Origin: Sphingopyxis sp. MSC1_008
GTDB taxonomy: Bacteria > Pseudomonadota > Alphaproteobacteria > Sphingomonadales > Sphingomonadaceae
Length of the DNA: 64,000 nucleotides
Direction: 5' to 3'
Assembly: GCF_023197165.1 (NCBI RefSeq)
Contig: NZ_JALPRD010000010.1
Location: 62,001 to 126,000 of the forward strand
The notes beneath the pieces were generated by a model. It saw nothing but the letters and a program-made list of their open reading frames with translations. It made no database searches and was not told the DNA's origin. Below are positions 5,990 to 41,702 of the stretch, one piece after another. The number at the start of each line of letters is the position of its first letter. Position 1 is the stretch's first letter. A program made the position numbers and the translations under genes.

Positions 5990-7600
5990 TACGGCGCGCG
6001 AAAGTCAAACGAAGTTCGGTAAACGGACGGTTTGAAAAGAAGCGGATTTTGGAGTTGGGGAAACTGGTTCTGGATCGAACTGGACCCGCAGTAAGAGTTG
6101 CCCGAGCAGGCGGGCTGGCCAAATGGGGTCAGCCTCGCACGGCTGCTTACGACCATGCGTCTGCTTTCGAGCATTCCTCGCACAGGGCGTATCCGTGAAC
6201 GCGGGGCGGCGGTTCCATGAGCGGCGCGACATAGGCCTTCCAATCTTCCATCAGCGCAGCCGCGTCTATAGGTTGGCTACATCTGATGCAGACGGGTTTT
6301 CTCGCGCGCCACGCCTCGTCCTTTGCGTCCGCTTCCTTTTTGAGCCTGCCCGGGCGCTTCCCAAAAAGCGCGCGTGCTCGGATCGATTCAAAATCATAGC
6401 CCGCGCCATAATTGTATATCCGCTTTATTGCCCCATTCCTGGCCTCGGTCGGGCCATTTGTAAGTCGCCCGTGATCGAAGAAGTTCAATATTTCTGTCCG
6501 CCAATTGTCGATCGCGCCCGCGACGCCCGCGAAAACATGCTTGTCATCGTCCGGTATGTTAGCGCGCCACTCGTTGAGGGCCGCTTCCGCGGTGGCGCGG
6601 TCATGTAAATCCCAAATGCTAAGCAGCGCCTCTTTTGCCTCGTACGTGGCATAGATCTCCTCTGATTTTGCGAGCCAGCCTCCGAGTTCGATTTCCTCGC
6701 TCCCACTTAACTCAGCCCTTCGTTTGAGAAAAATCCCGTTCACGCGTGTGAGAGCCTTTGAAAGATCAAGGTGAATTTTTCGCTGATAGCGACGGCGTGC
6801 TTCATCCATCGCTTTATTAACTTTATCGGCCATGTGCCATCGGTCGACGATGATGGCGGCCTGTGGCATCGTTCTCTTTACAGCCGTCCTATAGTAGTCG
6901 CACATATCCATCGTAACTACCTCGACTTCCCCGCGGTTGGGTAGTTTCCTAAGGAAGTTCTGCACGGACTTCAGAGTTCGATTGCGAAGTAACTCGAACG
7001 GCCAACTGTCCTCAAGATTGATCAAGATCGCCCGCATTTGTTTATCAACCAGCGCCAGTTCGTCGATTCCGATGTGGCGGGGAGCGCGTAAAGTGCGCGC
7101 ATGATGTTCGGACAACCAAGTATAATGCGCCTTGCTGATCTCTCCGATGGTTGTCTCTGACACGCCAGTGTCTTCGGCCACGTGAGCAATTGGCTTTAAC
7201 AGAGATTGTTTCTTGATATATTCAACCAGGCGCCTGGTCATGCGGCGGGTGCGGTGCATTTCCGGCAAGTGCTGCATGAACGACCCGTCGCACGTCCGAC
7301 AAGTATATTTGTTGTGCCGGACATGAATGAAGGTTTGCCGGCCATGAACCGGCGCATCTACAAACACCCTGGTTGTTGCGCCCCGCTTAACCAGTCGGCT
7401 AGTGGCTTCACATCGTCCGCACTCGGAGGGTGCGAGATCGTAGGTTGCAGTGATTTGGTAAGTGTCATTCTCGTCAACATGGACGTCGGAAACTGACCAG
7501 TCGGGCATTAAAAGAATATTTGTCATTCTCGAATTAGTGGATTGAAATTACTTAATAATATATTTATCGGCACGAGAAATTTCTGCCGATTTGGTTGCAT
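5990..7600. mobile_element. ISL3-type insertion sequence, ends not resolved
   Basis: The transposase at 6147-7526 implies an insertion sequence. I compared about 150 nt on each side for terminal inverted repeats and an 8-bp target duplication and found no convincing pair, so the limits given are only the interval that must contain the element. The AT-rich stretch at 7540-7592 upstream of the transposase is probably part of the element and may hold its promoter. Confidence 0.45.
6147..7526 (-). CDS. ISL3-family transposase
   Basis: A 459-residue transposase of normal length with no frameshift. An N-terminal ISL3 zinc finger is visible (CGRC ... CRTCDGSF), then a helix-turn-helix (HVAEDTGVSETTIGEISKAHY), then the DDE catalytic region with likely acidic residues in VVTMDMCDYYR, IIVDRWHMADKVN and TNGPTEARNGAIKRIYN. 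The C-terminus carries further cysteine pairs (CIRCSQP, ALCEECSK), likely a second zinc-binding motif. It appears intact and could still be active. It sits between the rodZ-like gene and a second transposase remnant, marking this junction as an insertion hot spot. Confidence 0.93.
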   Translation of the reverse strand: MTNILLMPDWSVSDVHVDENDTYQITATYDLAPSECGRCEATSRLVKRGATTRVFVDAPVHGRQTFIHVRHNKYTCRTCDGSFMQHLPEMHRTRRMTRRLVEYIKKQSLLKPIAHVAEDTGVSETTIGEISKAHYTWLSEHHARTLRAPRHIGIDELALVDKQMRAILINLEDSWPFELLRNRTLKSVQNFLRKLPNRGEVEVVTMDMCDYYRTAVKRTMPQAAIIVDRWHMADKVNKAMDEARRRYQRKIHLDLSKALTRVNGIFLKRRAELSGSEEIELGGWLAKSEEIYATYEAKEALLSIWDLHDRATAEAALNEWRANIPDDDKHVFAGVAGAIDNWRTEILNFFDHGRLTNGPTEARNGAIKRIYNYGAGYDFESIRARALFGKRPGRLKKEADAKDEAWRARKPVCIRCSQPIDAAALMEDWKAYVAPLMEPPPRVHGYALCEECSKADAWS

Positions 7601-7941: not shown

Positions 7942-8045
7942 CGAGTTGACTGCCTCGCGCCGCCTTGCGGAGCGCCATCTAAGCCTCTGCTAAGAAATAA
8001 AAAATTTACTTCCGACGATTAGACGCAGAATGGAATGGAGGCCCA

Positions 8046-8750
8046 ATGACAGCTCTTAATTTTTCGATCACCCATGAGGGCATTTTTCTTGCGACCGATA
8101 CGCTCGTCACCCGCGATGGCCGGCCATTAACGTTTACGGCCAAGGTCTTGATGCTGCCTCACATGGACGGTTTTGTCTCTGGGACCGGTTCGATAGCTCT
8201 GTTCCAACGCTGGTCGCATGAAATCCTTAGCGAGGGCATGGCCCATATGCATGTGCTCGATGTTTCTACGCCTGACCGACTTCGGAAAATTTGGGCAGAA
8301 ATGTCGGACGTGGAGCGTGACAACGGCACCTCGGACATTTACCACCTGTACTATGATCCCAACTATGATCGGTTTGGAGGTTTCGCTTACCGCTGTTCGA
8401 ACGACTTTGAAAGCGAGCCGCTCGGCTACGGGGATTACTCCAAACCAGACTTCGGTGACGCATTCCCCATCATAGACTTTCCGGGCGATCTCATAAGAGC
8501 ATGTCGCCGTCAGCGGTTCGCGCAGGAAAAGTTGGATCCCGACGAACGTCGGCAAATTGGCGGCCAAGTCATCGCGTATATGATGCAGCGCCATGAGGCT
8601 GAAGGGAAACCCATGTCTACGCTGATGACGGCGCAGATCGCCTACGAATTCGAAGATTTCGACGATATATTTCTTGATTGCGCCGAACGAATTGGTCCCG
8701 ACGACGATGTCTGGGGCAGTGACCCTGAGACCTGTCGATCGCCCATTTGA
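8046..8750 (+). CDS. Hypothetical protein with Ntn-hydrolase-like N-terminus
   Basis: A 234-residue protein with a strong ribosome-binding site (GGAGG 5 nt before the ATG). It opens ITHEGIFLATDTLVTRDGRP and continues FTAKVLMLPHMDGFVSGTG, a pattern that resembles proteasome-like Ntn-hydrolase folds (a D[TS]L strand, then a Lys in the next strand, then a GTG turn). No signal peptide or membrane helix. A processed N-terminal nucleophile is not obvious, so activity is speculative. It lies 81 nt upstream of the lasso precursor on the same strand and could be associated with that locus, but this gene is not part of the known lasso toolkit. Confidence 0.65.
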   Translation: MTALNFSITHEGIFLATDTLVTRDGRPLTFTAKVLMLPHMDGFVSGTGSIALFQRWSHEILSEGMAHMHVLDVSTPDRLRKIWAEMSDVERDNGTSDIYHLYYDPNYDRFGGFAYRCSNDFESEPLGYGDYSKPDFGDAFPIIDFPGDLIRACRRQRFAQEKLDPDERRQIGGQVIAYMMQRHEAEGKPMSTLMTAQIAYEFEDFDDIFLDCAERIGPDDDVWGSDPETCRSPI

Positions 8751-8795
8751 TTATAAAGTGGAACGCGAATCATCTGCAGAATAGCTTTTCGGATG

Positions 8796-8811
8796 CGACT
8801 CAATTGAGTCG
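8796..8811. promoter_or_regulatory. Perfect 16-bp palindrome upstream of the lasso precursor
   Basis: CGACTCAATTGAGTCG is a perfect inverted repeat 20 nt upstream of the precursor ATG. It could be an operator for a dimeric regulator such as the GntR protein of this locus. Alternatively, it could fold as a 6-bp stem with an AATT loop followed by TATTTT, a weak terminator or attenuator. A GGAAC motif at 8760-8764, the type used as a -35 element by many ECF sigma factors, lies just upstream. No matching -10 element was established. Confidence 0.45.
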
Positions 8812-8831
8812 TATTTTGAAAGGAAAATGCG

Positions 8832-8972
8832 ATGAAAAACCTGGACAATGAGGAAATGATCGATCTCGGCGCCATCAGCGTCGAGACACGCGGCATCAAG
8901 CAACTCGGCGAGCCCGATTTCGAGGATGGCGATCATTATGGCCTTGTCGGCGCGATTAGCACCGACGATTGA
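8832..8972 (+). CDS. Lasso peptide precursor (A gene)
   Basis: A 46-residue peptide starting MKNLDNEEMIDLGAISVETR, with AGGA 7 nt before the ATG. The first 20 residues fit a lasso leader: Thr19 sits at -2 from the predicted cleavage site, as in most proteobacterial leaders. The 26-residue core starts GIKQLGEPDF and ends AISTDD. Gly1 of the core can form the macrolactam with an acidic residue at position 9 (Asp), or less likely position 7 (Glu). From memory, the core aligns without gaps with sphingopyxin I of Sphingopyxis alaskensis (same length; Gly1, Ile2, Leu5, Gly6, Asp9, His15, Tyr16 and the terminal AspAsp shared), which favours Asp9. Genes B and C follow immediately. Confidence 0.9.
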   Translation: MKNLDNEEMIDLGAISVETRGIKQLGEPDFEDGDHYGLVGAISTDD

Positions 8973-9679
8973 ATGCGATCGGCGTGCCGCCGAACGGTGG
9001 CACGCCGGCCGTAGCCGCCATCGTGCCATTGCCGACCATGCCACTTCAATTGCGCCCAGGCCTCTATCATCGTCAGATCGGAGGGAATCATATCTTCTTC
9101 GATTTGTCAGCCGACCGCTATTTCCTCCTTCCGCCCCATTTGCGCGCTGCCTTCGACAGCTATTTAAACGGAACGCCAAGTGCCCCCGCGCTTTCCGAAC
9201 TCCTTGCCGCGGGTTTGATCGGTCCGGGGCAAGCCGAAGACTCGCCGACGCCGCTCGCCTTTACGCACGCTGTCGAGAGTCTTGTGGACGGCACGCTCGG
9301 CGCGGCGTCTACGCCGCAAATCTTGCGGGCAATCTGGATGCAAGGCCGTGCCCGCGCCGAGCTTCGTCGAGACGGCATTCTCGACATCGTGGCGCGACTG
9401 GAGCGAGACCGTCCCCGAAACGCTTCGTGCGACGAGCGTGTCATCCAGAATACTGCAGCGGCATTTCTCCACAGTCGGCGCCTTGTCTCCGCCGCCGACC
9501 AATGCCTCGTGCGGGGAATTGCGATGAAGCACTTGTTGGCGCAGAGGGGCTGCGACGCAAGGCTCGTGTTCGGGGTCACGATGCCATTCTCGGCGCACTG
9601 CTGGGTGCAGGCCGACGACGTGGTTCTCACCGATACCCTCGACATCATCCGCCGCTACCAACCGATATTCGCTGTCTGA
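8969..9679 (+). CDS. Lasso peptide biosynthesis B protein (RRE fused to leader protease)
   Basis: This protein recognises and removes the precursor leader. The N-terminal part (LRPGLYHRQIGGNHIFF, DLSADRYFLLPP) is the PqqD-like RRE that binds the leader. The C-terminal part is the transglutaminase-like cysteine protease with probable catalytic Cys179 (AADQCLVRG), His210 (FSAHCWVQ) and Asp222 (LTDTLD), numbered from the first codon. RRE and protease are one chain, as in proteobacterial clusters. The start is uncertain: a TTG at 8969 overlaps the precursor stop (coupled translation), but an ATG at 9038 would begin MPLQLRPGLYHRQ, the more usual N-terminus, giving 213 residues. The stop overlaps the C-gene start by one nucleotide. 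Confidence 0.93.
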   Translation: MNAIGVPPNGGTPAVAAIVPLPTMPLQLRPGLYHRQIGGNHIFFDLSADRYFLLPPHLRAAFDSYLNGTPSAPALSELLAAGLIGPGQAEDSPTPLAFTHAVESLVDGTLGAASTPQILRAIWMQGRARAELRRDGILDIVARLERDRPRNASCDERVIQNTAAAFLHSRRLVSAADQCLVRGIAMKHLLAQRGCDARLVFGVTMPFSAHCWVQADDVVLTDTLDIIRRYQPIFAV

Positions 9680-11400
9680 TGGCTGGCGGCTTTTACATCG
9701 ACATAAATGTCACCGCCGAAAAACCTTCGTCGGGTCAGGAAATTTTCGGACGTGCTCCCGACTTCACTGCTGCGAATGTGATGCTCTGGTCGGATGAGCC
9801 AATGGTCGCGATCGATGCGAGAACTGTCATACTCGGATACCTATTCCGGAAGGGGCCGCCGAGCGTGCGTGTACGCGATTGGGCGGGGGTGGACGGGAGC
9901 GCGCTCGTTGCTGCCAATGGGCGGGAGCTGATTAATGGCTATTGGGGCGGCTATGTTTTCGTGCATGTCGCGGAAGACGGCGCGCTTTACGTGCTGCGGG
10001 ACCCATCCGGTCTATTGCCTTGCTACATCCGGCGCTCGGGGCGCGCGACGGCGCTGGCTGGCGATGTCACGGACTTGGTAGTGCCCGAACCGGGCCGAAT
10101 AGATTTTGAAGAAATCGGACGCATTCTAGCCTCGGGAGATGCGCGCGGCCGGAATACCTGTCTTGTCGGCGTCGAGGAGCTGATTGCGGGAGAGTGCCTC
10201 GTGGTCGATCGGCGGAGCGCGAGGATCGAGCGATGGTGGTCACCATGGGACCACGTGACTCCCCGCGGAATGTCCTTCGGAGAGGAAACGAGCCAGCTTC
10301 GCTGGACGATAGCCGATTGCATCGGCTCCTGGTCGAGCTGTTTTCCGTCGATCCTGCTGGGATCATCTGGCGGTCTGGATTCCTCGATCGTCGCCGTGGC
10401 GGCCACTCCGCGATCGGAAAGGCTGACGGCCCTAACGCTCGTCAGTCCAGGCGTTGCTGGCGATGAGCGACCTTATGCGCACGCCGTCGCAAGTTCGCTC
10501 GGAATCCGCCTGCGTCATGCGCCGCTCGACCTGGCTGATATCGACGTCGAGCGTGCGGTCACGCCTCACCACCCGTGGCCGATCTCCCCGATATTCAAAC
10601 AGGCGGTTGGCGCCATCCATCGGCGATTGCACTCTGAAATGCCTATCGATGCGCATTTTTCCGGGAACGGCGGCGACGGAATATTTTGCAGCATTCGCAG
10701 CGCCGTTCCGTTGCTCGATCATTTCCTGTCCAAAGGACAGCGTACCGGTCTCGGCAAAACAGTTCGGGATATCTCCAGCCTCACCGGGGCGGACATCGTG
10801 ACGGTGCTCAGGCACGCTTGGTTGCGGCACAGGCGCTCGGGCGGGGCGCATCTGCCGCGCTACAATGAGCTTGGTCTTGAAAGGGAGGTGCTGGCGCGGA
10901 TCGAAGCGCAGGGTTTTTCTCATCCATGGCTCTCGGCGCCCGCTGACGCGCTCCCGGGGAAGACGGTTCACGTCGCGTTCCTGATGCGCGCCCAGAAAAG
11001 CCTCGAGCTTTATCCGCGGCGAAGCGCGCCGCTGCACATCGCGCCTCTGCTCTCCCAGCCGATCGTCGAACTATGTCTCTCTATTCCGACTTGGCGCTGG
11101 ATAGCCGACGGACGCGACCGCGCCGTCGCCCGGGCGGCCTTCTCGAATCGGCTTCCAAAAACGATCATAGAGCGGTCGCAGAAGGGCGGTCCGGCTGAGT
11201 TCAACCTTTCGATCTATAGAACACAGCGCGATCGGCTTCACGAGATGCTCCGCGGCGGCGTCCTGGCCGCCGCCGGCATCATCGATATATCCCTCTTGGA
11301 CGAGCCCGAAGATATTTCCTGGCGGGGCAATGCGCGCGAGCAACGCATTCTTGCTTTCGCCGCGGCCGAGAGCTGGGCGCGTCACTGGAATGGCGGTTGA
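9679..11400 (+). CDS. Lasso peptide macrolactam synthetase (C protein)
   Basis: A 573-residue asparagine-synthetase B-like enzyme that adenylates the acidic side chain of the core and closes the ring with the free N-terminal Gly. The ATP-binding PP-loop is SSGGLDSS at residues 229-236. The N-terminal region (YWGGYVFVHVAEDGALYVLRD, PSGLLPCY) is the glutaminase-like fold, but the catalytic Cys2 of true asparagine synthetases is absent (it starts MAGGFY), as expected for lasso cyclases that do not hydrolyse glutamine. Its ATG overlaps the B stop (TGATG). Its stop ends one nucleotide before the stop of the convergent isopeptidase gene. Frame and length are intact. Confidence 0.95.
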   Translation: MAGGFYIDINVTAEKPSSGQEIFGRAPDFTAANVMLWSDEPMVAIDARTVILGYLFRKGPPSVRVRDWAGVDGSALVAANGRELINGYWGGYVFVHVAEDGALYVLRDPSGLLPCYIRRSGRATALAGDVTDLVVPEPGRIDFEEIGRILASGDARGRNTCLVGVEELIAGECLVVDRRSARIERWWSPWDHVTPRGMSFGEETSQLRWTIADCIGSWSSCFPSILLGSSGGLDSSIVAVAATPRSERLTALTLVSPGVAGDERPYAHAVASSLGIRLRHAPLDLADIDVERAVTPHHPWPISPIFKQAVGAIHRRLHSEMPIDAHFSGNGGDGIFCSIRSAVPLLDHFLSKGQRTGLGKTVRDISSLTGADIVTVLRHAWLRHRRSGGAHLPRYNELGLEREVLARIEAQGFSHPWLSAPADALPGKTVHVAFLMRAQKSLELYPRRSAPLHIAPLLSQPIVELCLSIPTWRWIADGRDRAVARAAFSNRLPKTIIERSQKGGPAEFNLSIYRTQRDRLHEMLRGGVLAAAGIIDISLLDEPEDISWRGNAREQRILAFAAAESWARHWNGG

Positions 11401-11401
11401 G

Positions 11402-13582
11402 CTAACGAACTGACTCGGCGATGCCGCAGCGCGGTCTACCGTTTTCAGCCATCCGATCCCACACGGCGAAGCGTTCGGGAAAAGGGGCGTCCGTATCGCG
11501 CTTGCCGCGGAGCCAATAGTCGAACCATGCCATATTCTCACGCATTGCGAGCATCCGGTTCGACGGGATATGAAAGATGTGCGTCTCGTCGGACGCCGGG
11601 CTGGTGCCAGGATAATAAGTTAGCTGGGTCGGCACTTTCGCCGCCCGCAGCGCATCGAACAGCTCGGCCTGCGACGGGGAGGCCGCTGCAACCTGTTGCA
11701 GGACGGGCGTACAGACTTTCCTGGCATTGAGGGAGGGAGCGAAGCGGCGATATTGTTCGAAATGCTCGCTCATCGGCGACCCGCCATAGACGGGGTCATA
11801 GCTCGCGGGCCATCCGGCGTAGCCGGAGGGTTCCAGGAAGCCGCCATCGCCGCTCGACGCAGCGTTGAAGATTTTGGACCGCGTGACAGCGACATTGACC
11901 ATCTGGGCGCCGCGGCTGTAGCCCGCGATGCCGACGCGGGCAGGGTCGATGAGGCCCTCATTCGCAAGGTCGTTTATCGCGTCCACGAGGCTATCGACGC
12001 CCTCAATCCAGATGAGCTGCCGCACAGTCTCCGGATCGGGAGGGCCGCTACCTCGGGACCAAGCATTGTAGGCCGCGCGCAGATCTGACGACTGAAAGGG
12101 CAGCGGATCGTTGATTAACAGCACGACATAGCCGCGCTCGGCAAAGAGTTGAGCAGGGTAGTTCCACTGGTTTTCCGCCGTGGCGAAGCGCTCATCGGCG
12201 TCAAAGCCGTGCGTGATTACGATCGCAGGATAGCGTGTGTCGGGACGAAAGTCTCGCGGGTAGAGGACATAGCCTGACGTCTTGTAACCATTGCGATTGA
12301 TCCAGGTTCTGGCGCGCGCCTGAAGCGGCATAATCTCCTCATGGCGGGGAGATACCGTCACAATGAGCTCAATGCCGCCGCGGGCAATTTCGACACGAAC
12401 AAGCCTTGGCGGCATCGAAATGCCTTCCTCCACGCAGATTGCAAAACTGATTTGATCATCGAAACTGCACTTGGAGAGGCTGGCGGCGCCGTAAATTTCG
12501 CGCACGCCGGTTCTTTGCACCAGCGCGAGGCCATAGCGCGACGTTTCGAGGCTGCGGGTACCGACGATGGCCTTCCGCCCGTCGCGGCTGGCCGCGTAAT
12601 TCCGATCGCTGATAGTGAAAGCGAATCGGCCGTAGCGGTGGCGCTCCTCACCTGGGCCGCTTTCTCTCAATTCGAGTGCGGCGCCGATGCCCGTAGTGGA
12701 GAGTGCGCCGCCCCGCGGCCCTCTGAGCATCGTCAGCGTGCGCGCGTCGCGCTCGTTCGAAACGATACGGATGCTCTTCTGCTTGCGGTCCCATGCGCGC
12801 GTCTCGAAGACGCTGCCGGGCGTGCCATCGGGCGCCTCGGTCCTGAAAAGAATCTCGTCGCCGCGCCAGATAACCTTGCCGCCCGCGTGCATCGCCATTC
12901 GATCGCTAGTCGGACGGGTGATGACCCTGTCGATGCTTCCGTCCGGCGCGCGCAGGAAAAATTCGACTTCAGCCTCAATTGATGATCGCCTGCGGCTGCG
13001 CAGTCGGGTTACTGCCTCGTCAAAGCGAACAAGCGGTTGACCGGGCTTCGCCTTAAGCTGCGAATACCAGAGCCATTCCCCGTCAGGGGACCAATCATAG
13101 GCCAGAATGCCGATCTCGTGCGGCGAGGTTCCACCGCCCATAGCTACGGAAAGGTCTGCCTTCCCGACCGAGACCAACTCGCGGTTTTTAACTACCGTAC
13201 TGATCTTGCCATCGGTCGAGATTCGGTAAAGCTGCAGTCCTTCGCCGATATCGAGAAGGGCGCTCCAGTCCTCGGTCCCTGGAATATTCTTGAACGATCT
13301 CGCGATGTCGGCGCTTTCGATACTGCGCTGTGTCCTCGCACCGATATTGACGATCCGGATCTGCGCCCGCGTGCGCTTTGCTTGAGCGTCTGCGGTTTCA
13401 GTCGCGTAAATCGCAAAGTGCCCGTTTGCCGAAAGCGCGAGTTCGTTCACCTCAGGCACCAGCAGGATATCCTCAAACGTCCAGGGTCGGCCCTTTCTCT
13501 CCCCCGCCGGGGAGGCAGGGGAGAGAGCCACGGCGGCAAGGAACACCGCGGCGAACAGGCCGGTCTTGGGGCAGTTCCGCAT
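11402..13582 (-). CDS. Atxe2-like lasso peptide isopeptidase
   Basis: A 726-residue S9-family (prolyl-oligopeptidase-like) serine hydrolase with a signal peptide (MRNCPKTGLFAAVFLAAVAL). The N-terminal half fits a beta-propeller and the C-terminal half an alpha/beta hydrolase with the nucleophile elbow AGYSRGAQ (Ser556) and DETHIFH (His668). Glu640 lies 28 residues before the His, the spacing I recall for Atxe2 (Ser527, Glu610, His638). These enzymes open the ring isopeptide bond of the cognate threaded lasso. It starts 10 nt after the receptor gene with a GTGAGG Shine-Dalgarno and shares its operon. Periplasmic location follows from the signal peptide. A broader peptidase role cannot be excluded. 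Confidence 0.9.
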   Translation of the reverse strand: MRNCPKTGLFAAVFLAAVALSPASPAGERKGRPWTFEDILLVPEVNELALSANGHFAIYATETADAQAKRTRAQIRIVNIGARTQRSIESADIARSFKNIPGTEDWSALLDIGEGLQLYRISTDGKISTVVKNRELVSVGKADLSVAMGGGTSPHEIGILAYDWSPDGEWLWYSQLKAKPGQPLVRFDEAVTRLRSRRRSSIEAEVEFFLRAPDGSIDRVITRPTSDRMAMHAGGKVIWRGDEILFRTEAPDGTPGSVFETRAWDRKQKSIRIVSNERDARTLTMLRGPRGGALSTTGIGAALELRESGPGEERHRYGRFAFTISDRNYAASRDGRKAIVGTRSLETSRYGLALVQRTGVREIYGAASLSKCSFDDQISFAICVEEGISMPPRLVRVEIARGGIELIVTVSPRHEEIMPLQARARTWINRNGYKTSGYVLYPRDFRPDTRYPAIVITHGFDADERFATAENQWNYPAQLFAERGYVVLLINDPLPFQSSDLRAAYNAWSRGSGPPDPETVRQLIWIEGVDSLVDAINDLANEGLIDPARVGIAGYSRGAQMVNVAVTRSKIFNAASSGDGGFLEPSGYAGWPASYDPVYGGSPMSEHFEQYRRFAPSLNARKVCTPVLQQVAAASPSQAELFDALRAAKVPTQLTYYPGTSPASDETHIFHIPSNRMLAMRENMAWFDYWLRGKRDTDAPFPERFAVWDRMAENGRPRCGIAESVR

Positions 13583-13592
13583 GGCCTCGCCC

Positions 13593-16133
13593 TCACCAAT
13601 CGCGGCTGATCGTCAGGGCGAGAAAACGCCCGATCGCCGAATAATTCGTCGAATCGAACGGCGTGTCGTTCGGCGCCGCCACGAGTATTTGATCGGGCTT
13701 CGCATTGAATATGTTGAGGGCGCTAACCGTGACATCGGCGACACCCGCGATCTTGATGCGGCCGGTCAGGTCGAAGGTCGCAACCGGAGAAATTTCGATT
13801 GGGACCGCGCGGCGTCGGTCCGTCACGCCGCCAGTGAAACTCGAGAAGGCCGCGAGCGTAAACCGGTCACCGTCGTAAGTCGCACCGCCGCGCGCGCGAA
13901 AATGCGGTGGGCTGAAGATATTGCCCGCGAGGTCAGTGACCGGCAGATCAGGAAGCAGACGCTGCTGGCTGTCTAGCCAAGTCGCTCCGGCGCTGAGGGT
14001 CAGTGACCGGCCCCCGCTCAGGGAAGCGCGGTAGCGGATTGCGAGATCTGCACCGCGATATCTCTGCTCGGCGATATTGCGGTCGCGCCCGTCGAGAAGA
14101 GCAACGACGTTGGCAGGGTCATAGGGGCCGGTCGTGCCGTTCGCCAGCGGGCCGGCGGCGCCCGCGATCGCGGCATCGAGTTCGGCCGCGGCCGGGTTGA
14201 AGGTCACGAGCTGCGAGTAGAGCGGGTCGGTCAGCGCTCCCAGCACCGATCTCAGTGGCGGTGCGACGCGGTCGCGATAGTCGATATGGAAAAGGCTCGT
14301 AATAATTTCGAGGCGTGATGACGGCCGGAACGTCGCGCTCAGCGTCATATTCTCCGAGCGTTCAGGACCGACCTCCGGATTGGGGCCGCCGATGTACACA
14401 AAGGTCGAACCTGCCGGAAACTGCGTGCCATAGCCGGTGACCGGCACCAAGCTTGCCGAGTATCCGGTATATTGCTGGATGAGCGTCGGCATCTTGAAGG
14501 ACCGGCCCCATGAGACACCAAGACTGAACTCCGGCACGGGTGAATAGACCAGCCCCAGCTTCGGCGTCGCAATGCTGCCCGAGTCCGAATAATCCTCCCA
14601 GCGCAAAGCCGCGGTGAAGGAGGCGCGATGGGCGAAGCCGAGGTTCTGATCCGGACTTGCCAACGGAACGAACAATTCGCCGTAAGCGAATTTATTCTCT
14701 CGCGCCGGCGTGATGTTGCGCCCGGAAAATTCTCCGTGAATGCGATTCTGACGCCAACCTCCGCCCGCTGCTAGCCGGACATCGCCCGCGGGCAGAGCGA
14801 ACAGCGGGCCCTCCGCGCCTGCCTCGATCGCGATATTGCGATTGTCGAAGATCCGGATCAGCTTGGCGGCAACGCCATTGGTGAAATTATCGGTGACGCC
14901 GTAGGTCTCGTCGGTGCCGTAGAATCCCGTCAGGCGCGTGGTCCAGTCGCCGCCAATGTCGATTTCGAGCGTCGGTGCGATGCCGAATGTCTCGAACTTA
15001 TTTACAACCCGGGTCCCGCGCGTTTCGATCGGCCTATCGACGAAAAGGCCGCGCACCGACGTCATGTCGCCGCGCTTGTAGATGAGGTCTGCCTTTAGGC
15101 GCACGCCGGCAGCGAACTGCTGGTGGGCGCTCAGGAGCACGCTATGGCGCTTCAGATCGGGATAGAAAGTAGAGGCGGGGTTGCTGCTTGACGAAAAACT
15201 GCGATCGCTGGCGCGGATCGCACTGTTGTCGAAATAGTCATAAACTGCAAGGATGCCGCCGGTTAACCATTTGGTTCCGCCAAGCAAGCTATACTGCTGC
15301 TGGAAATTGCCGCCATCGGTCGAGCCGCCAATCCGCGCAGTCGTCGTGAACCCTTCATAGTCCTTGCGCAGCAGGATATTGACCACACCAGCGACGGCGT
15401 CGGCACCGTATATCGCCGATGCACCGTCGGTGACGATCTCGATGCGCTCGACTGCGGCAACCGGAATTGCGCTCACGTCGATCACACTGTTCGTCCCGCT
15501 ATAGGCGAAGCGGTTGCCGTTCAGCAGGGTAAGGGTAGCGTTGGGACCGATGCCGCGAAGGTTGAAGGTCGACGCGCCGTTGACGTTCACATTTTCGTTT
15601 TGCGTGCCTTGGGCCGAACCGATCCCCGGGTTCTGGCCACCTCCGAAATTCTGGGGAAGGCTACGCGCTACTTCGCCAAGATCGGCCAAGCCGGCGTTCT
15701 TGATGTCCTGGTTCGTGACCGTGATGACGGGGGCGGCCGGTGGCGCGCCCTCAATGCGCGTCCCCGTTACCACTATGGCTTCCTCTGATCCTTGAACCGC
15801 GAGCGCGCCGGACCCGGATCTTCCCCTGATCAACACCGACCCGTTGTCGAACCGAGCTACCAGCGTTGTCCCTTGCAGCAGCCTTTCAACTGCCTCTTTG
15901 GCCGTAAAGTTCCCCTGCAGCGGAGGGACGGAAACACCGTTTATCTCATCCGCTGCTGCATAGAGTTCCCAATCAGCCGTTGCCGCGACGGTCCTCAACG
16001 CATCGCCCAAGTCCTGTGCCGGAATGTCGAATATGTAGCGCTCGGTTTCCTGCGCGGCCAACTCCAGTGGCGCCAACGCCAAAATTGTACCAGCCAGTAG
16101 CGCCTGTACGGTGCGTAATTTCGAAATCTTCAT
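13593..16133 (-). CDS. TonB-dependent receptor with STN signalling domain
   Basis: An outer-membrane active transporter of about 846 residues. The ATG at 16133 has GGGGAGG 6 nt upstream and begins MKISKLRTVQALLAG, a signal peptide ending at ELAAQ. Next comes an STN domain (YIFDIPAQDLGDALRTVA, EAVERLLQGTTLVARFDNG), which in Fec-type receptors contacts FecR in the periplasm. The plug follows (IVVTGTRI, ADLGEVARSLPQNFGGGQN, GASAIYGADAVAGVVNI), then a beta-barrel ending in an aromatic residue (TISRDW). Next to a lasso isopeptidase, its likely substrate is the lasso peptide itself, as proposed for other proteobacterial clusters. Iron chelate uptake is the main alternative. Confidence 0.92.
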   Translation of the reverse strand: MKISKLRTVQALLAGTILALAPLELAAQETERYIFDIPAQDLGDALRTVAATADWELYAAADEINGVSVPPLQGNFTAKEAVERLLQGTTLVARFDNGSVLIRGRSGSGALAVQGSEEAIVVTGTRIEGAPPAAPVITVTNQDIKNAGLADLGEVARSLPQNFGGGQNPGIGSAQGTQNENVNVNGASTFNLRGIGPNATLTLLNGNRFAYSGTNSVIDVSAIPVAAVERIEIVTDGASAIYGADAVAGVVNILLRKDYEGFTTTARIGGSTDGGNFQQQYSLLGGTKWLTGGILAVYDYFDNSAIRASDRSFSSSSNPASTFYPDLKRHSVLLSAHQQFAAGVRLKADLIYKRGDMTSVRGLFVDRPIETRGTRVVNKFETFGIAPTLEIDIGGDWTTRLTGFYGTDETYGVTDNFTNGVAAKLIRIFDNRNIAIEAGAEGPLFALPAGDVRLAAGGGWRQNRIHGEFSGRNITPARENKFAYGELFVPLASPDQNLGFAHRASFTAALRWEDYSDSGSIATPKLGLVYSPVPEFSLGVSWGRSFKMPTLIQQYTGYSASLVPVTGYGTQFPAGSTFVYIGGPNPEVGPERSENMTLSATFRPSSRLEIITSLFHIDYRDRVAPPLRSVLGALTDPLYSQLVTFNPAAAELDAAIAGAAGPLANGTTGPYDPANVVALLDGRDRNIAEQRYRGADLAIRYRASLSGGRSLTLSAGATWLDSQQRLLPDLPVTDLAGNIFSPPHFRARGGATYDGDRFTLAAFSSFTGGVTDRRRAVPIEISPVATFDLTGRIKIAGVADVTVSALNIFNAKPDQILVAAPNDTPFDSTNYSAIGRFLALTISRDW

Positions 16134-16198
16134 AAAGCCTCCCCTGATTGCCCGCGCCGCGCGCAGTGCCATCGGGAATGCTTCGACAAGTGTGGAGA

Positions 16199-16216
16199 GG
16201 CCGACCTTAGGCGGCC
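16199..16216 (-). promoter_or_regulatory. Inverted repeat between fecR-like and receptor genes
   Basis: The 93-nt gap between the FecR-like gene and the receptor contains GGCCG...CGGCC arms around an 8-nt centre. It may be a weak terminator of the sigma/anti-sigma unit or an operator. There is no T-tract directly after it, so a terminator call is not secure. Confidence 0.25.
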
Positions 16217-16226
16217 AGAGAATATT

Positions 16227-17234
16227 TTATTTGCTGCGGACGAATATGCCGTCCGGACGACGATGAACCGTAAGATCAAAAAGATCCGCGATCCGTTTCA
16301 GGAACATCTCCGTGTCGCTGATCTTGAAACGTCCTGATACATCACGCTTGGCAATCTTCGGATCTTCCACAACAATGGGAAGGGATGCGTACTCATTGGC
16401 TTCCGAAATCAGTTGATCCAGTGGAATCGAACGGTGCTCGGTCCAACCCGACGGCCAGTTCGCCGAATTGACACCGTACCTCGCGGTGGAACGAACTTGC
16501 GTATCGTGAAACCCGTATTGGAGCGCCGAGCGGGTTCGGAGCGATTGCGGCTCGGCGGCTGCGGAGGCCGCGCGCGATGCTGAGGCAAGATGGGCCTTTC
16601 CGCTGATCAGTTCCACCACGACTTGGCGGTCGGCGCCTATCATCACGTCGACGATGCCTTCGTTCGTCGTCACGATGCCTTGGCCAGCTGCGAGGCGGAA
16701 AGGGCGGATATCGTTGGCAACCCTCACCCGAGCCCGGCCATGTGATACGCGCACATACCGCGTGTCCGGGGATATCGATACCTCAATTCTGGTGTTGGAA
16801 TCGAGCGTCGCCATGGATCCATCTTCAAGTTCGAAACTGCGTATTTCGCCGCGTTCGGTCACCAGTGGTTCCGCAGCGTGGGCATATACGCCCGAACCCG
16901 GGATTGGAGTTCCACCGGCGCTGATCGTGATCGCAAACACGATTACCGCCGCCGCCGCCGCGCCGAACATCATCCAGCGTGTTGAAGGGCGCGTGACAAG
17001 TTTTGCCGTGGTCGCCTCACTGGTTTGCCCGGAGGATTTCAAAATCTCGGCTTGGGCTATCACGCGAGAATAGCGGTTATAAGCCTGCCTGTGGCGCGGA
17101 GATTCCGCCAGCCATTGCTCGAATTGCTCCTGAAGCTGTTCGGTCACCTCGCCGCGCATCCTGATGCTCCATGCAAGAGCATCATCTTTGCGGAGGGCGT
17201 CGCTCCCAGATTTCGCGCTGTCATCGTCATTCAT
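16227..17234 (-). CDS. FecR-family anti-sigma factor
   Basis: A 335-residue inner-membrane regulator. The cytoplasmic N-terminus has the FecR DUF4880-like pattern (DDALAWSIRMRGEVTEQLQEQFEQWLAESPRHRQAYNRYSRV), a single membrane helix lies at about residues 87-108 (WMMFGAAAAAVIVFAITISAG), then the periplasmic FecR domain (GEIRSFELEDGSMATLDSNTRIEV, GRARVRVA, PFRLAAGQGIV) and a C-terminal STN-like segment. It should hold or activate the adjacent sigma factor in response to substrate binding by the TonB receptor. Its ATG overlaps the sigma-factor stop by 8 nt, so translation is probably coupled. Confidence 0.93.
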   Translation of the reverse strand: MNDDDSAKSGSDALRKDDALAWSIRMRGEVTEQLQEQFEQWLAESPRHRQAYNRYSRVIAQAEILKSSGQTSEATTAKLVTRPSTRWMMFGAAAAAVIVFAITISAGGTPIPGSGVYAHAAEPLVTERGEIRSFELEDGSMATLDSNTRIEVSISPDTRYVRVSHGRARVRVANDIRPFRLAAGQGIVTTNEGIVDVMIGADRQVVVELISGKAHLASASRAASAAAEPQSLRTRSALQYGFHDTQVRSTARYGVNSANWPSGWTEHRSIPLDQLISEANEYASLPIVVEDPKIAKRDVSGRFKISDTEMFLKRIADLFDLTVHRRPDGIFVRSK

Positions 17235-17712
17235 CGACCGGGTCCACCACTTGTGCGATATGCGCCAGGGCCTTCATCATATGATATTCAACCGTTGCGA
17301 TGCTGATGCCCAGACGCTGATGGATCTCGCGGTAGCTAAGTTCCTCGACGCGGTGCATCAGAAAAACTCGTCTGGTCTTCTCACTGAGACCTGTAACGGC
17401 GCGCTCATAGAGCCGGAGGAGATCGGCAGCTTCCATTCCAAGTTCTTGCTCTGGCGGACTGGCAAGATCATATTCTTCCTCAAGTGGAAGAAGGACGATC
17501 TTATTGCGCCGGCTACTGATTGCGCGATTTATCAGGAGGTTTCGCGCAATGCGCTGGAGAAAGGCGGCCGGGTTGGCGAGGCGATGCCGCTGCTCGCTGC
17601 CAGCGGCACGCAAGAACACTTCCTGCATCAGATCCGGTGCGGCCTCTGGACCAACGTGTCGCCGAAGGTAGCGTAGCAAGACGGCGCCGTCATCGCGAAA
17701 GGCTCTGTCCAA
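17227..17712 (-). CDS. FecI-type ECF sigma factor
   Basis: An extracytoplasmic-function sigma factor. Region 2 is visible (LLRYLRRHVGPEAAPDLMQEVFLRA, NPAAFLQRIARNLLINRA) and region 4 (LSEKTRRVFLMHRVEELSYREIHQRLGISIATVEYHMMKAL). The frame stays open upstream to 18105, but the extra 131 residues look non-coding and match no sigma domain. I therefore prefer a TTG at 17712 with GAGGGG 8 nt before it, giving 161 residues, normal for FecI-like factors; another start near this point is possible. It likely drives the receptor/isopeptidase operon, and perhaps the lasso precursor. Confidence 0.88.
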   Translation of the reverse strand: MDRAFRDDGAVLLRYLRRHVGPEAAPDLMQEVFLRAAGSEQRHRLANPAAFLQRIARNLLINRAISSRRNKIVLLPLEEEYDLASPPEQELGMEAADLLRLYERAVTGLSEKTRRVFLMHRVEELSYREIHQRLGISIATVEYHMMKALAHIAQVVDPVDE

Positions 17713-18141
17713 GGCGGCGTTCCCCTCGTTGGGGAGCCGGGTGGCCGTCGGAATGTTAACCGGCTTTTCCGGCTCCCTGACCCGATCCGACGTTGAAGGC
17801 AGGAGTGCGCGCGCAGAACGGTCGCGACCGAATGAAGAAAATGCCACAGGACTAATCTGAAATGGCAATGCGAGCAGGCGGGTTGTCACCCGTCTACAAG
17901 TCGTTTCTCGCTTCGCCGCCGTTAAATCGCCCCGCGGCAATTTGATGGTCGGGCCACCCGTCCGGTAAGGACGAACGTTCATAATGCGTGACGGAACTTC
18001 CACGCGGCTGCTGCCAATTTGCTCGCCGCGCTGTGCCGTCATGCCGGCGGCCGTGAAAATTGGCAAGAAAAACACCGTAGGAATTCGTCTTTCGATACAA
18101 TCCATCTTTCCCGACGTGAAATTTCGGCAGCCGCGACGAAA
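17713..18141. other. 429-nt gap upstream of the sigma factor
   Basis: This gap separates the GntR gene from the ECF sigma gene. One minus-strand frame runs through it in phase with the sigma gene, but the translation resembles no known domain. It probably holds the promoter of the sigma/anti-sigma/receptor/isopeptidase unit. I could not pick a convincing -35/-10 pair. Confidence 0.5.
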
Positions 18142-18753
18142 TCAGGGCGCGCTTGGTTGATCCAAATCTGATGTCATCAGCCGAATATATTCTGCCGCCT
18201 TGGCGATACGTCGACCATGATATCCAATCATAAGTCTTTGTAATTCGTCACCTCTCGGGTCATCGTTCGCTGCTGATATAATGTCTTCCAGCTCCGAATC
18301 GGCGTCTTCAATGAGCTGAGAATCGCAACGGCGAAATGGATGAAGGCGATCATTAAGCCCTGAGATTGCTTTGATTTGTGCGCGATTAGCTGTTCGGCTA
18401 CCCAGTTGCCGGAATAGTTTCGAGACTCGGTCTGGATAGACCCCATCCGCTGAAATTGCAGACGAATCTTTCGAAGATTCGATCGCAGCGAGAATAAGAT
18501 TTTGATGGTGTTCGAAAAGATGACGCAGTTCGGCTTCATCTATCCGCGGCACATAGAATCCTTCGCCAGAGACGTACGCGACCATTTGCTCGCTTTCCAG
18601 CCGACGAAGAGCCTCGCGGACCGGCGTGATGCTGGAAAATAGCATATCGGCGATTTTTATCGGATCCAGACGTGTGCCCTGAGGCCAGAAGCCATCCATA
18701 AGAAGCTCCTTGATTGCGTGGTAGATGGGTTCGAGAACGCGCGCGGGACACAT
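18142..18753 (-). CDS. GntR-family transcriptional regulator
   Basis: A 203-residue DNA-binding protein. The N-terminal winged helix-turn-helix is typical of the GntR family: LEPIYHAIKELLMDGFWPQGTRLDPIKIADML, then TPVREALRRLESEQMVAYVSGEGFYVPRID. The C-terminal part is alpha-helical with an FCD-like beginning (EAELRHLFEHHQNLILAAIESS) but diverges later, so the effector site is unclear. FCD proteins bind small carboxylates in many cases; the ligand here is unknown. It is followed by the sigma gene on the same strand, placing it as a likely second control layer of the lasso locus. Candidate operators are the palindromes at 8796-8811 and 19011-19024. Confidence 0.88.
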   Translation of the reverse strand: MCPARVLEPIYHAIKELLMDGFWPQGTRLDPIKIADMLFSSITPVREALRRLESEQMVAYVSGEGFYVPRIDEAELRHLFEHHQNLILAAIESSKDSSAISADGVYPDRVSKLFRQLGSRTANRAQIKAISGLNDRLHPFRRCDSQLIEDADSELEDIISAANDDPRGDELQRLMIGYHGRRIAKAAEYIRLMTSDLDQPSAP

Positions 18754-18756
18754 GGA

Positions 18757-18945
18757 TCAGTGCAATCTGGCTTGCGCTAAACCACGGAGCATCGCTCCGT
18801 AAGCTTGGCGCTCGGCATCGACTGCCCCATTGCACATTGCCCCCTTGTCGTGCTGATAAATCAGATCTCGAGCGAAGACCGAGAATGACGAATGGCGAAG
18901 CGCCGATGCACTCTTGATGCGTCCGCATGTCTTGTAATTGGCCAT
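18757..18945 (-). CDS. Small protein of unknown function upstream of gntR
   Basis: A 62-residue frame starting MANYKTCGRIKSASALRHSS and ending in GLAQARLH. The ATG at 18945 has AAGGAA 9 nt upstream, a good ribosome-binding site, and the stop lies 3 nt before the GntR ATG, suggesting translational coupling. Two cysteines, basic N-terminal half, no signal peptide or membrane helix. I do not recognise it. It is not laid out like a lasso precursor: a Thr-x-Gly site with a downstream acidic ring residue is missing. Its tight coupling to gntR is the main reason to believe it is real. Confidence 0.5.
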   Translation of the reverse strand: MANYKTCGRIKSASALRHSSFSVFARDLIYQHDKGAMCNGAVDAERQAYGAMLRGLAQARLH

Positions 18946-19261
18946 TTGTACCAGTTCCTTCTTAATACCATTCTCAATTACCAAGCTCTAAGCTAGGCTA
19001 TGCGACCAATCCGACCCGAGTCGGCTTGCTGCAATGCAAATATATAGCCAATGTGTCGTAACGAGTCTATCATGCAATTTGGCTATATTAAAAAATGCAG
19101 TCTGATTGTGGCTCTGGATGTTTGTGGAACTTTATTTTGATTGAGTAACGTGGAAAGTGTAGTTGTATCATTCTGTATGTTTGTGGAAGTTTAATTTAAA
19201 TGAGCAGGTGAATCAGGATCTTTCTGGAAGATTTTACCCGACTGTTACCGCGCGCCGCTAG
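18946..19261. other. AT-rich intergenic stretch at island edge
   Basis: About 316 nt with markedly lower GC than its surroundings. It contains the likely promoter of the small ORF/gntR unit on the minus strand, an imperfect palindrome at 19011-19024 (CCGACCCGAGTCGG) and a pair of long direct repeats at 19118-19204. No gene was seen. It marks the border between the lasso locus and the decayed island. Confidence 0.55.
19118..19204 (+). repeat. Pair of 28-nt imperfect direct repeats
   Basis: Two copies, 19118-19145 and 19177-19204, share ATGTTTGTGGAA followed by an AT-rich TTTA tail and TGAG; they differ at four positions and are spaced 59 nt apart. A weaker third copy begins at 19218 (ATCTTTCTGGAAG). 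This may be an iteron-like binding site for a replication, partition or recombination protein of the adjacent island. No protein partner is evident. Confidence 0.6.
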
Positions 19262-19411
19262 CTTGAGACGGCGTCGAATATCCGTGTTGAACAACGCAAA
19301 GGACGCAAGGAACGCTATGCCATGCTCTCGCCGCAGCTAGCGGCTCTGCTCCAAATTTGGTGGCGCGAGGGCAAGCGTCGCAATGTCATGCTACCGGCGC
19401 CCGGCGCTCGG
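19262..19411 (+). pseudogene. Tyrosine recombinase (integrase) fragment
   Basis: The frame reads RVEQRKGRKERYAMLSPQ and continues LAALLQIWWREGKRRNVML. This closely matches the middle of the catalytic domain of tyrosine recombinases that travel with IS91-like elements (VEQGKGRKDRYAMLSP, then a WW motif). Only about 45 residues remain: a stop codon precedes it and the similarity ends after the WW block, so the Arg/His/Tyr catalytic C-terminus is lost. The frame stays open to 19588 but is unlike a recombinase there. It is a marker of former mobility for the following region. Confidence 0.6.
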
Positions 19412-19722
19412 AGGTCGGGTCGATATTGCGGCTTCGACGCCAATACAGCCAGAATGGTGGTTTCGACGCGGGGCCTCATGCTCGTAACCATCGCGCCAAA
19501 CGGACCCGGCTGGGGCGCATCCACCGAGAGCGCAACCAGAGGGAGACAAGTGAAGGGGAAGGGGAGAACATCAGAGATGTCCCGGTAGCAGATTTGCAAA
19601 TGTGAAAGAGGGAAGGATCGAGCGGCCGTCTGCCGATGCCTTCGATGTCGGCCGCTTCATCGATGCGGGCAGCGGCATTGACCCGTGACGGGCCTCTACG
19701 GGCAACTGCCGGAACGTAAAAA

Positions 19723-19971
19723 ATGATCTACTTCGCTCTGAAAAACCGTCGGCTCATTCGCAAGTTGGCGCGGGCACTGCGGCTGATGGCGCCGCGCGAC
19801 GGTGTCATATTCCTCGGACATTTCGTTGAAGAGGCGACCTTCTTCGAACTTGCGCGACAGCATGGCATCAGCGTTGCCGAAGTAGAAGCGGCGCTTCGTC
19901 GTGGACTTGAGATCGTGGCCGATGTCCTCGAGCCGGATCCGCCGCGGTGGTGGCGGTTTTGGCGCCGTTAG
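19723..19971 (+). CDS. Small sigma-70 region 4-like protein
   Basis: An 82-residue protein. The core LRLMAPRDGVIFLGHFVEEATFFELARQHGISVAEVEAALRRGLEIV has the layout of an ECF sigma region 4 (a leader helix, a hinge, a helix-turn-helix with GIS-VAEVE). No region 2 is present, so it cannot act as a complete sigma factor. It ends in a Trp/Arg-rich tail (PPRWWRFWRR). GGAA lies 8 nt before the ATG. Such stand-alone proteins are frequent in sphingomonad mobile islands, where their role is unknown; a DNA-binding regulator is the simplest guess. Confidence 0.65.
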   Translation: MIYFALKNRRLIRKLARALRLMAPRDGVIFLGHFVEEATFFELARQHGISVAEVEAALRRGLEIVADVLEPDPPRWWRFWRR

Positions 19972-20023
19972 GTCCGTTTGATGCTTGCCAAGCAGTAGCC
20001 AGCGGGACAGGGTGAACAGGATC

Positions 20024-20953
20024 ATGCGTACCGACCTCGATCATCTTCCCGCGAACAAGCAGCGCGAATTGGAGCGCGTTGTCCAGATCATTTTCGAGGA
20101 ATTCGAAGATGCACTGGCACTCGCTCAAAAGCAGTGGAAAAAGAAGGGGCGGATCGAAAAGATCATCCTGTATGGCAGCTACGCCCGGGGTGGCTGGGTC
20201 GATGAGCCCCATACCGCAAAGGGATATCTTTCCGACTTCGATTTGCTCATCATCGTCAACGATAAGCGCCTAACGGAACGTGTCGATTATTGGCTCAAGC
20301 TAGATGACCGGCTGATCCGTGAACTTGCGATCAACAAGAGTCTGCACACGCCAGTGAATTTCATCGTGCATACGCTGCAGGAGGTGAACGACGGGCTCGC
20401 GCACGGTCGATATTTTTTCATGGATATCGCGAAGGATGGCATCGCGCTCTACAGCTATGATGACAAGGAACTCCATACTCCAAAGCCCAAGACGCCGGAG
20501 CAGGCGTTGGCTATGGCGAAGGAGTATTTCGGGGAATGGATGCCTGCCGCATCAGGCATGCTGGAAACTGCAACATTTAGTCGCCAGCAAGGGAGGTTAA
20601 AAGACGCCGCATTTCTTACTCATCAAGCTGCAGAACGTCTCTACCATTGCGTGCTTTTGGTATGCACCTTCTACACCCCGCACGTCCATAACCTCGCTTT
20701 CCTTCGCACGCAGGCTGATCGGATTGATATGCGGTTGGTTGACGCTTGGCCTCGAGAGCGGCGTGAAGACCGTGCGCTGTTTGAAAAGCTGAAAGAGGCT
20801 TACGTGAAGGCCCGCTATTCGAAGCACTACCGTATCAGCCACGAAGAACTGTTTCGACTTAGCGAAAATGTCGATGCATTGGGGCAGGCCGTGCACGCGG
20901 TTTGCGTCGACCGAATTTCGGAGCTGGAAGCAAGGGTGCCTACCTCAAAGTAG
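20024..20953 (+). CDS. Nucleotidyltransferase-HEPN fusion protein
   Basis: A 309-residue two-domain protein. The N-terminal minimal nucleotidyltransferase has GSYARG at residues 51-56 and the metal-binding pair Asp71 and Asp73 (SDFDLLII). The C-terminal HEPN domain spans about 170-300 (FLTHQAAERLYHCVLLV, AYVKARYSKHYRIS). In separate-gene form, MNT-HEPN pairs are toxin-antitoxins in which the MNT protein modifies the HEPN RNase. Here both are in one chain, with no partner gene. The ATG at 20024 is preferred; an open extension 39 nt upstream adds 13 residues without a domain. The HEPN R-x4-6-H motif is not canonical, so RNase activity is uncertain. Confidence 0.85.
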   Translation: MRTDLDHLPANKQRELERVVQIIFEEFEDALALAQKQWKKKGRIEKIILYGSYARGGWVDEPHTAKGYLSDFDLLIIVNDKRLTERVDYWLKLDDRLIRELAINKSLHTPVNFIVHTLQEVNDGLAHGRYFFMDIAKDGIALYSYDDKELHTPKPKTPEQALAMAKEYFGEWMPAASGMLETATFSRQQGRLKDAAFLTHQAAERLYHCVLLVCTFYTPHVHNLAFLRTQADRIDMRLVDAWPRERREDRALFEKLKEAYVKARYSKHYRISHEELFRLSENVDALGQAVHAVCVDRISELEARVPTSK

Positions 20954-34635: not shown

Positions 34636-34835
34636 TATCGGCCATTGTTCCCGCTCGAGGGAGGCGAAAGCTCGCCAGGGACCCGGCTCTCTCCTTCCCG
34701 TCGGGACGAAGACTTCGCGTTCTTCGGGCGATGCCGAATAATGAGGCCGCCAGTTGTCATGTCCGGTTATGAATTATAGGGGGATGCAAAGGCTCGCTTC
34801 TTTTTGCGCACTATGCATTTTACAGGTCGAATTAC

Positions 34836-41622: not shown

Positions 41623-41651
41623 ACGACCACTGAGGGCGGAAAATCTCCCTA

Positions 41652-41667: not shown

Positions 41668-41702
41668 CGCTGTAAGTAAATGCAGGGAATAGGGGGATTT
41701 TC

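Follow-up and report, generated by a model that had tools for sequence, protein, structure and literature searches.

Gene content of the locus

We analysed a 64,000-nucleotide stretch of Sphingopyxis sp. MSC1_008 (RefSeq assembly GCF_023197165.1, contig NZ_JALPRD010000010.1, positions 62,001 to 126,000 of the forward strand), referred to here as the window, which carries a complete lasso peptide locus of eight genes (Table 1). An initial annotation had placed a precursor (A), a fusion of an RRE half with a protease (B) and a cyclase (C) on the plus strand, and a GntR regulator, a FecI sigma factor, a FecR anti-sigma factor and an STN-bearing TonB receptor on the minus strand; all of these genes are present, open and located as it described, with the RRE half of B judged by eye from sequence resemblance alone. 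A, B and C overlap or abut (B begins at a TTG codon overlapping the stop of A at 8972, and the ATG of C overlaps the stop of B), and the isopeptidase, receptor, FecR, FecI and GntR genes lie on the opposite strand.

Table 1. Features of the lasso peptide locus, in coordinates of the window.
Feature	Position	Strand	Basis or remark
Precursor A, 46 amino acids	8832–8972	+	Pfam Subterisin, 40.5 bits (cut-off 27)
B, RRE-like leader-binding half and leader protease	8969–9679	+	lasso_biosyn_B2, 69.4 (cut-off 33)
C, predicted macrolactam (isopeptide-forming) cyclase	9679–11400	+	Asn_synthase, 79.5 (cut-off 21)
S9 peptidase, predicted SpI-IsoP-type lasso isopeptidase (Ser556, His668)	11402–13582	-	5jrk match, tree
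TonB-dependent receptor: N-terminal STN signalling domain, Plug, barrel	13593–16172	-	Pfam
FecR-type anti-sigma factor	16227–17234	-	FecR, 41.8 (cut-off 24)
FecI-type extracytoplasmic function (ECF) sigma factor	17227–~17772	-	Sigma70_r4_2, 53.2 (cut-off 25.7)
GntR-type regulator, winged helix and helical C-terminal part with no named domain	18142–18753	-	
Candidate GntR operator, GATTATAA box	8749–8756	+	one copy remaining, up to three in relatives
Hairpin core GCGACTCAATTGAGTCGT in the precursor mRNA leader	8795–8812	+	stem reaching about 8791–8816

The profile scores place A, B and C in lasso families. Precursor A also scores 31.9 bits against the NCBIfam benenodin family, just below its cut-off of 33, and is the single Subterisin-type precursor match in the genome. 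A Pfam scan of B called no domain in its RRE half. C carries the ATP-site motif SGGLDS from residue 230 and falls below the cut-offs of NF033561 (83.4, cut-off 300) and NF033535 (46.7, cut-off 525), as does C of the sphingopyxin I (SpI) locus (80.9 and 51.1). Neither B (E up to 1) nor C (E up to 0.01) had a match among PDB sequences. The STN domain of the receptor scores 30.2 bits (cut-off 28.4), and the true start of this protein, with a signal peptide, is probably at 16133. The start of FecI is uncertain, its open frame extending to 18105. With its STN receptor, its FecR and its ECF sigma factor, the locus has a FecI/FecR/TonB cell-surface signalling gene set. In the AlphaFold model of GntR, which has a mean predicted local distance difference test score of 59.8, only the winged helix is well modelled. 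No ATP-binding cassette (ABC) exporter is encoded among the cluster genes, and an Rfam search over 8000–19500 (E up to 5) gave a single match, far below its cut-off.

The window proteins were used to annotate 60 fetched stretches, four named loci (all numbered here with the prefix L) and the window itself. The stretches were chosen for a Subterisin match, SpI type first, so that these loci have a precursor and an enzyme by selection; SpI-type enzymes with no precursor match nearby (e.g. G006:C17, G025:C2, G026:C15 and G065:C11) lie outside the sample. L001, L002 and L004 coincide with L091, L084 and L095 and were counted once, and L102, L103, L109 and L110, which have no isopeptidase match, enter neither the 33 loci with an SpI-type isopeptidase nor the 25 on the AtxE2 side. 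Near-copies and kinship within both sets mean that the shuffles and chance figures given below overstate independence. The eight-gene order of the window is identical in 30 of the 33 SpI-type loci (near-copies included), an arrangement far beyond chance. Three of the loci outside both sets (L102, L103 and L110) keep A and B, have a shortened C frame and are apparently decaying or rearranged; isopeptidase, receptor, FecR, FecI and GntR are all unmatched in their fetched stretches.

The isopeptidase is of the sphingopyxin I type

The S9 enzyme had been annotated initially as an Atxe2-like isopeptidase. It is a lasso isopeptidase homologue, but its type is SpI-IsoP and not AtxE2. The window enzyme matches PDB 5jrk with 968 bits across residues 5–724 (59.3% identity over 707 residues), and AtxE2 with 69 bits in the C-terminal half (25% identity over 350 residues). 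We take 5jrk and 5jrl to be structures of the sphingopyxin I isopeptidase (Fage et al. 2016). In a tree of 62 rows, built by a quick method and containing long outgroup branches, the window enzyme and 5jrk fall in one 31-row branch with a Shimodaira–Hasegawa-like approximate likelihood ratio test value of 99, and two other isopeptidase branches, one holding AtxE2, stand apart from it; six near-duplicate loci were left out, the same six as for the GntR tree.

On the match and the tree together we rejected an ordinary S9 peptidase, a candidate raised by the score under the Atxe2 cut-off, as well as a separate new class of isopeptidase. The NCBIfam Atxe2 model (NF033523, cut-off 400) does not cover the SpI type: it is passed neither by the window enzyme (161.4) nor by that of L087 (166.7), a locus of the same genus whose isopeptidase is 100% identical to 5jrk over 722 residues. 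L087 was identified as the sphingopyxin I locus because of this identity, and its NCBIfam scores come very close to those of the window, at 70.2 and 69.4 for B, 80.9 and 83.4 for C, and 166.7 and 161.4 for the isopeptidase. Ser556 and His668 are invariant among 34 aligned isopeptidase sequences, and from the known families the S9 enzyme would be expected to open the isopeptide bond.

SpI-type homologues also occur on plasmids of Blastomonas and Sphingopyxis indica (NZ_CP016458.1, 147333–149417, 44% identity; NZ_CP076395.1, 128333–130402, 42%; each across 95%), so this type also moves on plasmids.

The core peptide is constant among the closest loci

The precursor reads MKNLDNEEMIDLGAISVETR-GIKQLGEPDFEDGDHYGLVGAISTDD, where the hyphen marks the predicted cut after a leader ending in ETR. 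The predicted core, GIKQLGEPDFEDGDHYGLVGAISTDD, has 26 residues and a predicted ring between Gly1 and Asp9. Threonine at the penultimate leader position and aspartate at core position 9 agree with known lasso rules. Core position 9 is Asp or Glu in all SpI-type precursors compared; in 23 of the 25 other precursors this residue is at position 8, with L122 and L123 having it at 9.

All 26 core residues are identical in the window and its five closest loci, whose core codons differ from those of the window by 0, 4, 4, 4 and 6 silent changes. Relative to these five, the receptor is 91–96% identical, B 72–97%, C 85–97% and GntR 48–74%, and in four of these comparisons no other protein is as well conserved as the receptor. 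In L078, a more distant member of the group that lacks lux genes (described below), the core differs at five residues. A constant ligand and a well-conserved receptor would fit a signal or a carrier better than a weapon. The peptide could conceivably be antibacterial against relatives, with receptor and isopeptidase conferring immunity, as killing by other lasso peptides goes through TonB receptors and an isopeptidase would shield the maker. We consider this improbable: the core is held constant in six loci and is not diversifying (though that of L078 does differ), the locus has no exporter gene, and isopeptidase-type lasso peptides are described as lacking antimicrobial activity (PMC9266682).

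Possible second precursors were seen in L087 (13763–14098), L071, L088, L093 and L094. The one in L087 lies between C and the isopeptidase gene, has the core GLEPVGPVEEDTGSRYIPFAGIGEYD and scores narrowly under the Subterisin cut-off.

GntR belongs to the locus

That the GntR gene is part of the locus had been offered initially as an inference, and the comparison bears it out: GntR lies beyond FecI on the minus side in 30 of the 33 SpI-type loci and before A in none of them, and its type co-occurs with a box upstream of A (see below). It was not found in L085, L092 or L093, the last of which is cut off. On the AtxE2 side (n = 25), GntR lies upstream of A on the same strand in 22 loci and on the sigma side in three (L115, L116 and L119). 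These three intermediate loci have an AtxE2-type isopeptidase and group with the SpI side in the GntR tree. Isopeptidase clusters have been described as nearly constant in architecture, with GntR ahead of the precursor (PMC9266682); this layout is not that of the SpI-type loci, among them the sphingopyxin I locus.

Within the lux-less group (15 pairs from six loci), conservation is lowest for GntR, at a median identity of 49.7%, compared with 82.4% for the isopeptidase. The ranking is the opposite in a selection of 13 lux-linked SpI-type loci (GntR 73.5%, isopeptidase 46.7%), where GntR is ahead in 57 of 78 pairs. The part of GntR that reads DNA shows 88% identity among eight selected lux-linked loci (28 pairs), compared with 42% in the lux-less group (15 pairs). 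Fast evolution in the window subclade (48–74% identity to the window protein), together with short frames in L003 and L083, is what one might expect if the gene were an unrelated neighbour adjoining by chance. We regard such a coincidence as very improbable, given that the sigma-side position recurs in 30 of the 33 loci, including the window subclade lacking lux and phyH, and that the GntR type tracks the box upstream of A even in the three loci with an AtxE2-type enzyme.

A quorum-sensing module adjoins most related loci

At the sphingopyxin I locus (L087, 4115–7083), a gene for a PhyH-type dioxygenase overlaps gntR and is preceded by luxI and luxR. Genes of this luxR-luxI-phyH-gntR module adjoin the lasso genes in 40 of 58 loci: 23 of the 33 SpI-type loci, 14 of the 22 with GntR before A and all three intermediates. 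Depending on the layout, the module precedes either A or FecI. All of luxR, luxI and phyH are matched in 37 of the 40 linked loci, the partial modules being phyH alone (L075), luxR with luxI (L100) and luxI alone (L127). The 80 genomes of the genus that were surveyed contain 126 luxI genes, 83 of them no more than 15 kb from a lasso precursor; conversely, a luxI was found at this distance or closer for 80 of 119 lasso loci (a set from which about ten second precursors had been removed by hand). With random placement, about 2.7 luxI genes would be expected no further than 20 kb from a precursor, a statistic that ignores relatedness.

In the window, no lux or phyH frame was matched, and tblastn gave chance-level matches only (E above 0.1). 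The sole luxI of the genome is on a separate contig, C15, beside a luxR, and phyH, gntR and lasso genes are unmatched in the 19.9 kb around it. Neither were lux or phyH genes matched in the stretches of the six nearest loci (L091, L084, L003, L096, L095 and L078). L094, the next relative in the GntR and isopeptidase trees, has phyH, luxI and luxR and shares the sigma-side flank with the window. A shared stretch of this flank (19757–20682 in the window), which carries a nucleotidyltransferase gene, starts 1.0 kb past GntR in the window; in L094 the distance is 5.4 kb, with phyH, luxI and luxR in between. As lux-linked loci stand on both sides of the isopeptidase tree, loss of lux in the window subclade, rather than gain elsewhere, is the simpler reading, although not a proven one. 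The pattern suggests that the lasso clusters of this genus are usually tied to quorum sensing and that the window cluster has lost the tie.

The gene order luxR-luxI-phyH is known in sphingomonads (PMC3704786, PMC4288048 and PMC5012321). The word 'lasso' is absent from the main texts of these three articles and of PMC11024222, and a literature search, whose coverage mostly excluded subscription papers, returned no report tying lasso clusters to lux genes.

Candidate operator boxes and a leader hairpin upstream of A

One to three GATTATAATC boxes, spaced 11 bp apart, lie upstream of A. Their 8-letter core, GATWATWA, occurs in 28 of the 33 distinct SpI-type (class II) and intermediate leaders, in none of the 22 others (class I), and in 0.4% of random 120-nt windows. 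The boxes are present in the three intermediate loci, which combine an AtxE2-type isopeptidase with an SpI-side GntR. The leaders without the box are those of L084, L095 and L003, all of the drifting window subclade, and of L101 and L093. GntR in the three subclade members has a changed reading helix (L084 and L095) or a shortened frame (L003); L101 and L093, in which the exact core is absent, fit the tie between box and regulator poorly. In the window subclade, then, the GATTATAA boxes are fading and GntR is drifting. Judged from these sequence patterns, GntR most likely controls the precursor promoter via the GATTATAATC boxes. Boxes outside genes upstream of FecI are limited to one, in L112. 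Candidate promoter boxes about 2 kb beyond GntR were discarded, as all 11 of those inspected sit within luxR frames.

A stem can also form in nearly every A leader, after the promoter region and ahead of the ribosome-binding site. Its arms are GCGAC/GTCGC in the SpI type and GCCGC/GCGGC or GCTGC/GCAGC elsewhere; some of the pairs are G-U, and the loop varies in length. Five leaders of second precursors were excluded from the box count, the SpI-type stem comparison and the folding scores, and four of the 25 leaders were dropped from the class I hairpin count (L115, L116 and L119, with class II-like stems, and L129, with a different leader). When 29 SpI-type leaders are aligned without regard to structure, 96.1% of cells pair, compared with 26–35% when the structure is slid; four of the seven pairs show a double change, matched by 1 of 500 shuffles, although this amounts to four cells confined to few sequences, with L096 accounting for two. 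For the 21 other leaders, 93.7% of cells pair (13–65% when slid), but double changes in two of six pairs (1.7 shuffled) and six pair types (5.9 shuffled) are not above chance; double-changed cells number six, compared with 2.7 when shuffled. The mean folding z-score of 55 A leaders is -2.12, against -0.42 for leaders of FecI, 0.15 for FecR, -0.40 for GntR, -0.61 for the isopeptidase and -1.40 for the receptor, whose leaders fold well too. The variable loop length and the G-U pairs favour a hairpin that acts as RNA over a DNA operator, the less likely alternative. The idea that the hairpin masks the ribosome-binding site was not supported, computed openness being 0.42 in A leaders and 0.39–0.48 in controls.

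These elements could belong together. We tentatively suggest, while thinking it somewhat less probable than its converse, that isopeptidase-type lasso peptides of Sphingopyxis form a layer of quorum sensing, with the module at either end of the locus, GntR reading the GATTATAATC boxes and the hairpin as a second control. The window would then be a natural knock-out of the input, its peptide and receptor kept constant as a self-sensed signal.

A peptide that may be exported, re-imported, sensed and opened

The best explanation of the whole, and one we consider highly probable, is a chromosomal isopeptidase-type locus of the sphingopyxin I kind, whose peptide would be re-imported, sensed and opened, and whose GntR would be the remnant of a module. 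By analogy with the known families, B would remove the leader after ETR and C would link Gly1 to Asp9, giving a 26-residue lasso. The peptide would leave the cell by a route other than an ABC exporter of the locus, and the locus's own STN-bearing TonB receptor would take it back. Binding to the receptor may act through FecR on the FecI sigma factor and so raise expression of receptor and isopeptidase, the latter presumably opening the imported peptide. GntR would be the leftover of the luxR-luxI-phyH-gntR module that most related loci keep beside their lasso genes. The gene content, the families of the proteins, the gene order, the conservation, the lack of lux and phyH and the association of regulator type with the box were observed directly; ring formation and linearisation are predicted from known families, and re-import, sensing and the regulatory logic are inferences.

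Several observations weigh against parts of this explanation. Column invariance in the 34-sequence alignment did not place the third catalytic residue of the isopeptidase, and no motif common to the sigma-side and precursor-side promoters was shown. The lux-linked locus L083 has a short GntR frame (132 amino acids) yet keeps two boxes. L085 and L092, both SpI-type, have A, B, C, isopeptidase and receptor, whereas FecI, FecR and GntR are undetected in their fetched stretches, so sensing is not indispensable.

The same genes could serve a scavenging carrier akin to a siderophore: the peptide would be secreted, bind metal or organic cargo, return via the receptor and be cut to release it, with sensing secondary. 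Ferric citrate uptake has the same TonB-FecI-FecR layout, and release of cargo by the isopeptidase has been proposed (PMC9266682 and PMC11006600). However, we know of no cargo, none of the loci examined showed a conspicuous cargo-processing gene, and the quorum-sensing linkage in 40 of 58 loci together with the unchanged core fits a signal at least equally well. A carrier therefore seems to us possible but rather unlikely, and re-import for sensing and linearisation remains our preferred explanation.

Genomic surroundings

An open frame of 234 amino acids (8046–8750), with no Pfam family at cut-off, is conserved immediately ahead of the precursor in L001, L002 and L096 and lies on the opposite side of the locus in L078. 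Further out, an ISL3 transposase gene (6147–7526) is single-copy in the genome and has homologues in the same place in L001, L002, L003 and L096, and in the opposite direction in L004. This element is probably an old resident. Recent mobility by means of it was rejected, as long flanking matches are common to L001–L004 and L096 and the element is single-copy; on the same grounds the locus looks settled.

On the other side, three very large RTX-repeat proteins are encoded around a type I secretion ABC/HlyD pair (30271–46475), beyond which genes for polysaccharide synthesis extend to about 63 kb. Given its place among the large RTX proteins, the ABC/HlyD pair (34836–38497) more likely belongs to them than to the lasso cluster.

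Comparison with known systems

The window locus is complete and ordinary for its genus, and its sphingopyxin I kind is already known. The biological role of isopeptidase-type lasso peptides has been termed enigmatic (PMC9266682). Four features offer handles on it: the quorum-sensing module beside most such loci of the genus, the candidate regulator-operator pair, the candidate RNA hairpin, and the window as a natural variant in which the module is missing, the peptide unchanged and the receptor well conserved.

The closest characterised relative is the sphingopyxin I cluster (L087), the peptide of which has been produced in Escherichia coli (PMC7549694). Like the window, it has A-B-C followed by the convergent genes E-T-R-S-G, an isopeptidase 59% identical to that of the window and a predicted ring closing at Asp9. 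Its core, GIEPLGPVDEDQGEHYLFAGGITADD, shares the pattern GI..LG..D...G.HY...G.I..DD with that of the window (12 of 26 residues) and differs at the other 14. Unlike the window, L087 has luxR-luxI-phyH before gntR, as well as the possible second precursor between C and the isopeptidase gene.

Astexin/AtxE2-type clusters also combine A-B-C with an isopeptidase, a TonB receptor, FecI/FecR and GntR, and have no ABC exporter (PMC9266682). They differ from the window in that their isopeptidase falls in another branch (25% identity over 350 residues) and their GntR lies before the precursor, whereas that of the window lies beyond FecI. Finally, among sphingomonad luxR-luxI-phyH loci, one in Novosphingobium is reported to have gntR after phyH (PMC5012321), which resembles the order in the lux-linked lasso loci; the window is set apart by having neither lux nor phyH.

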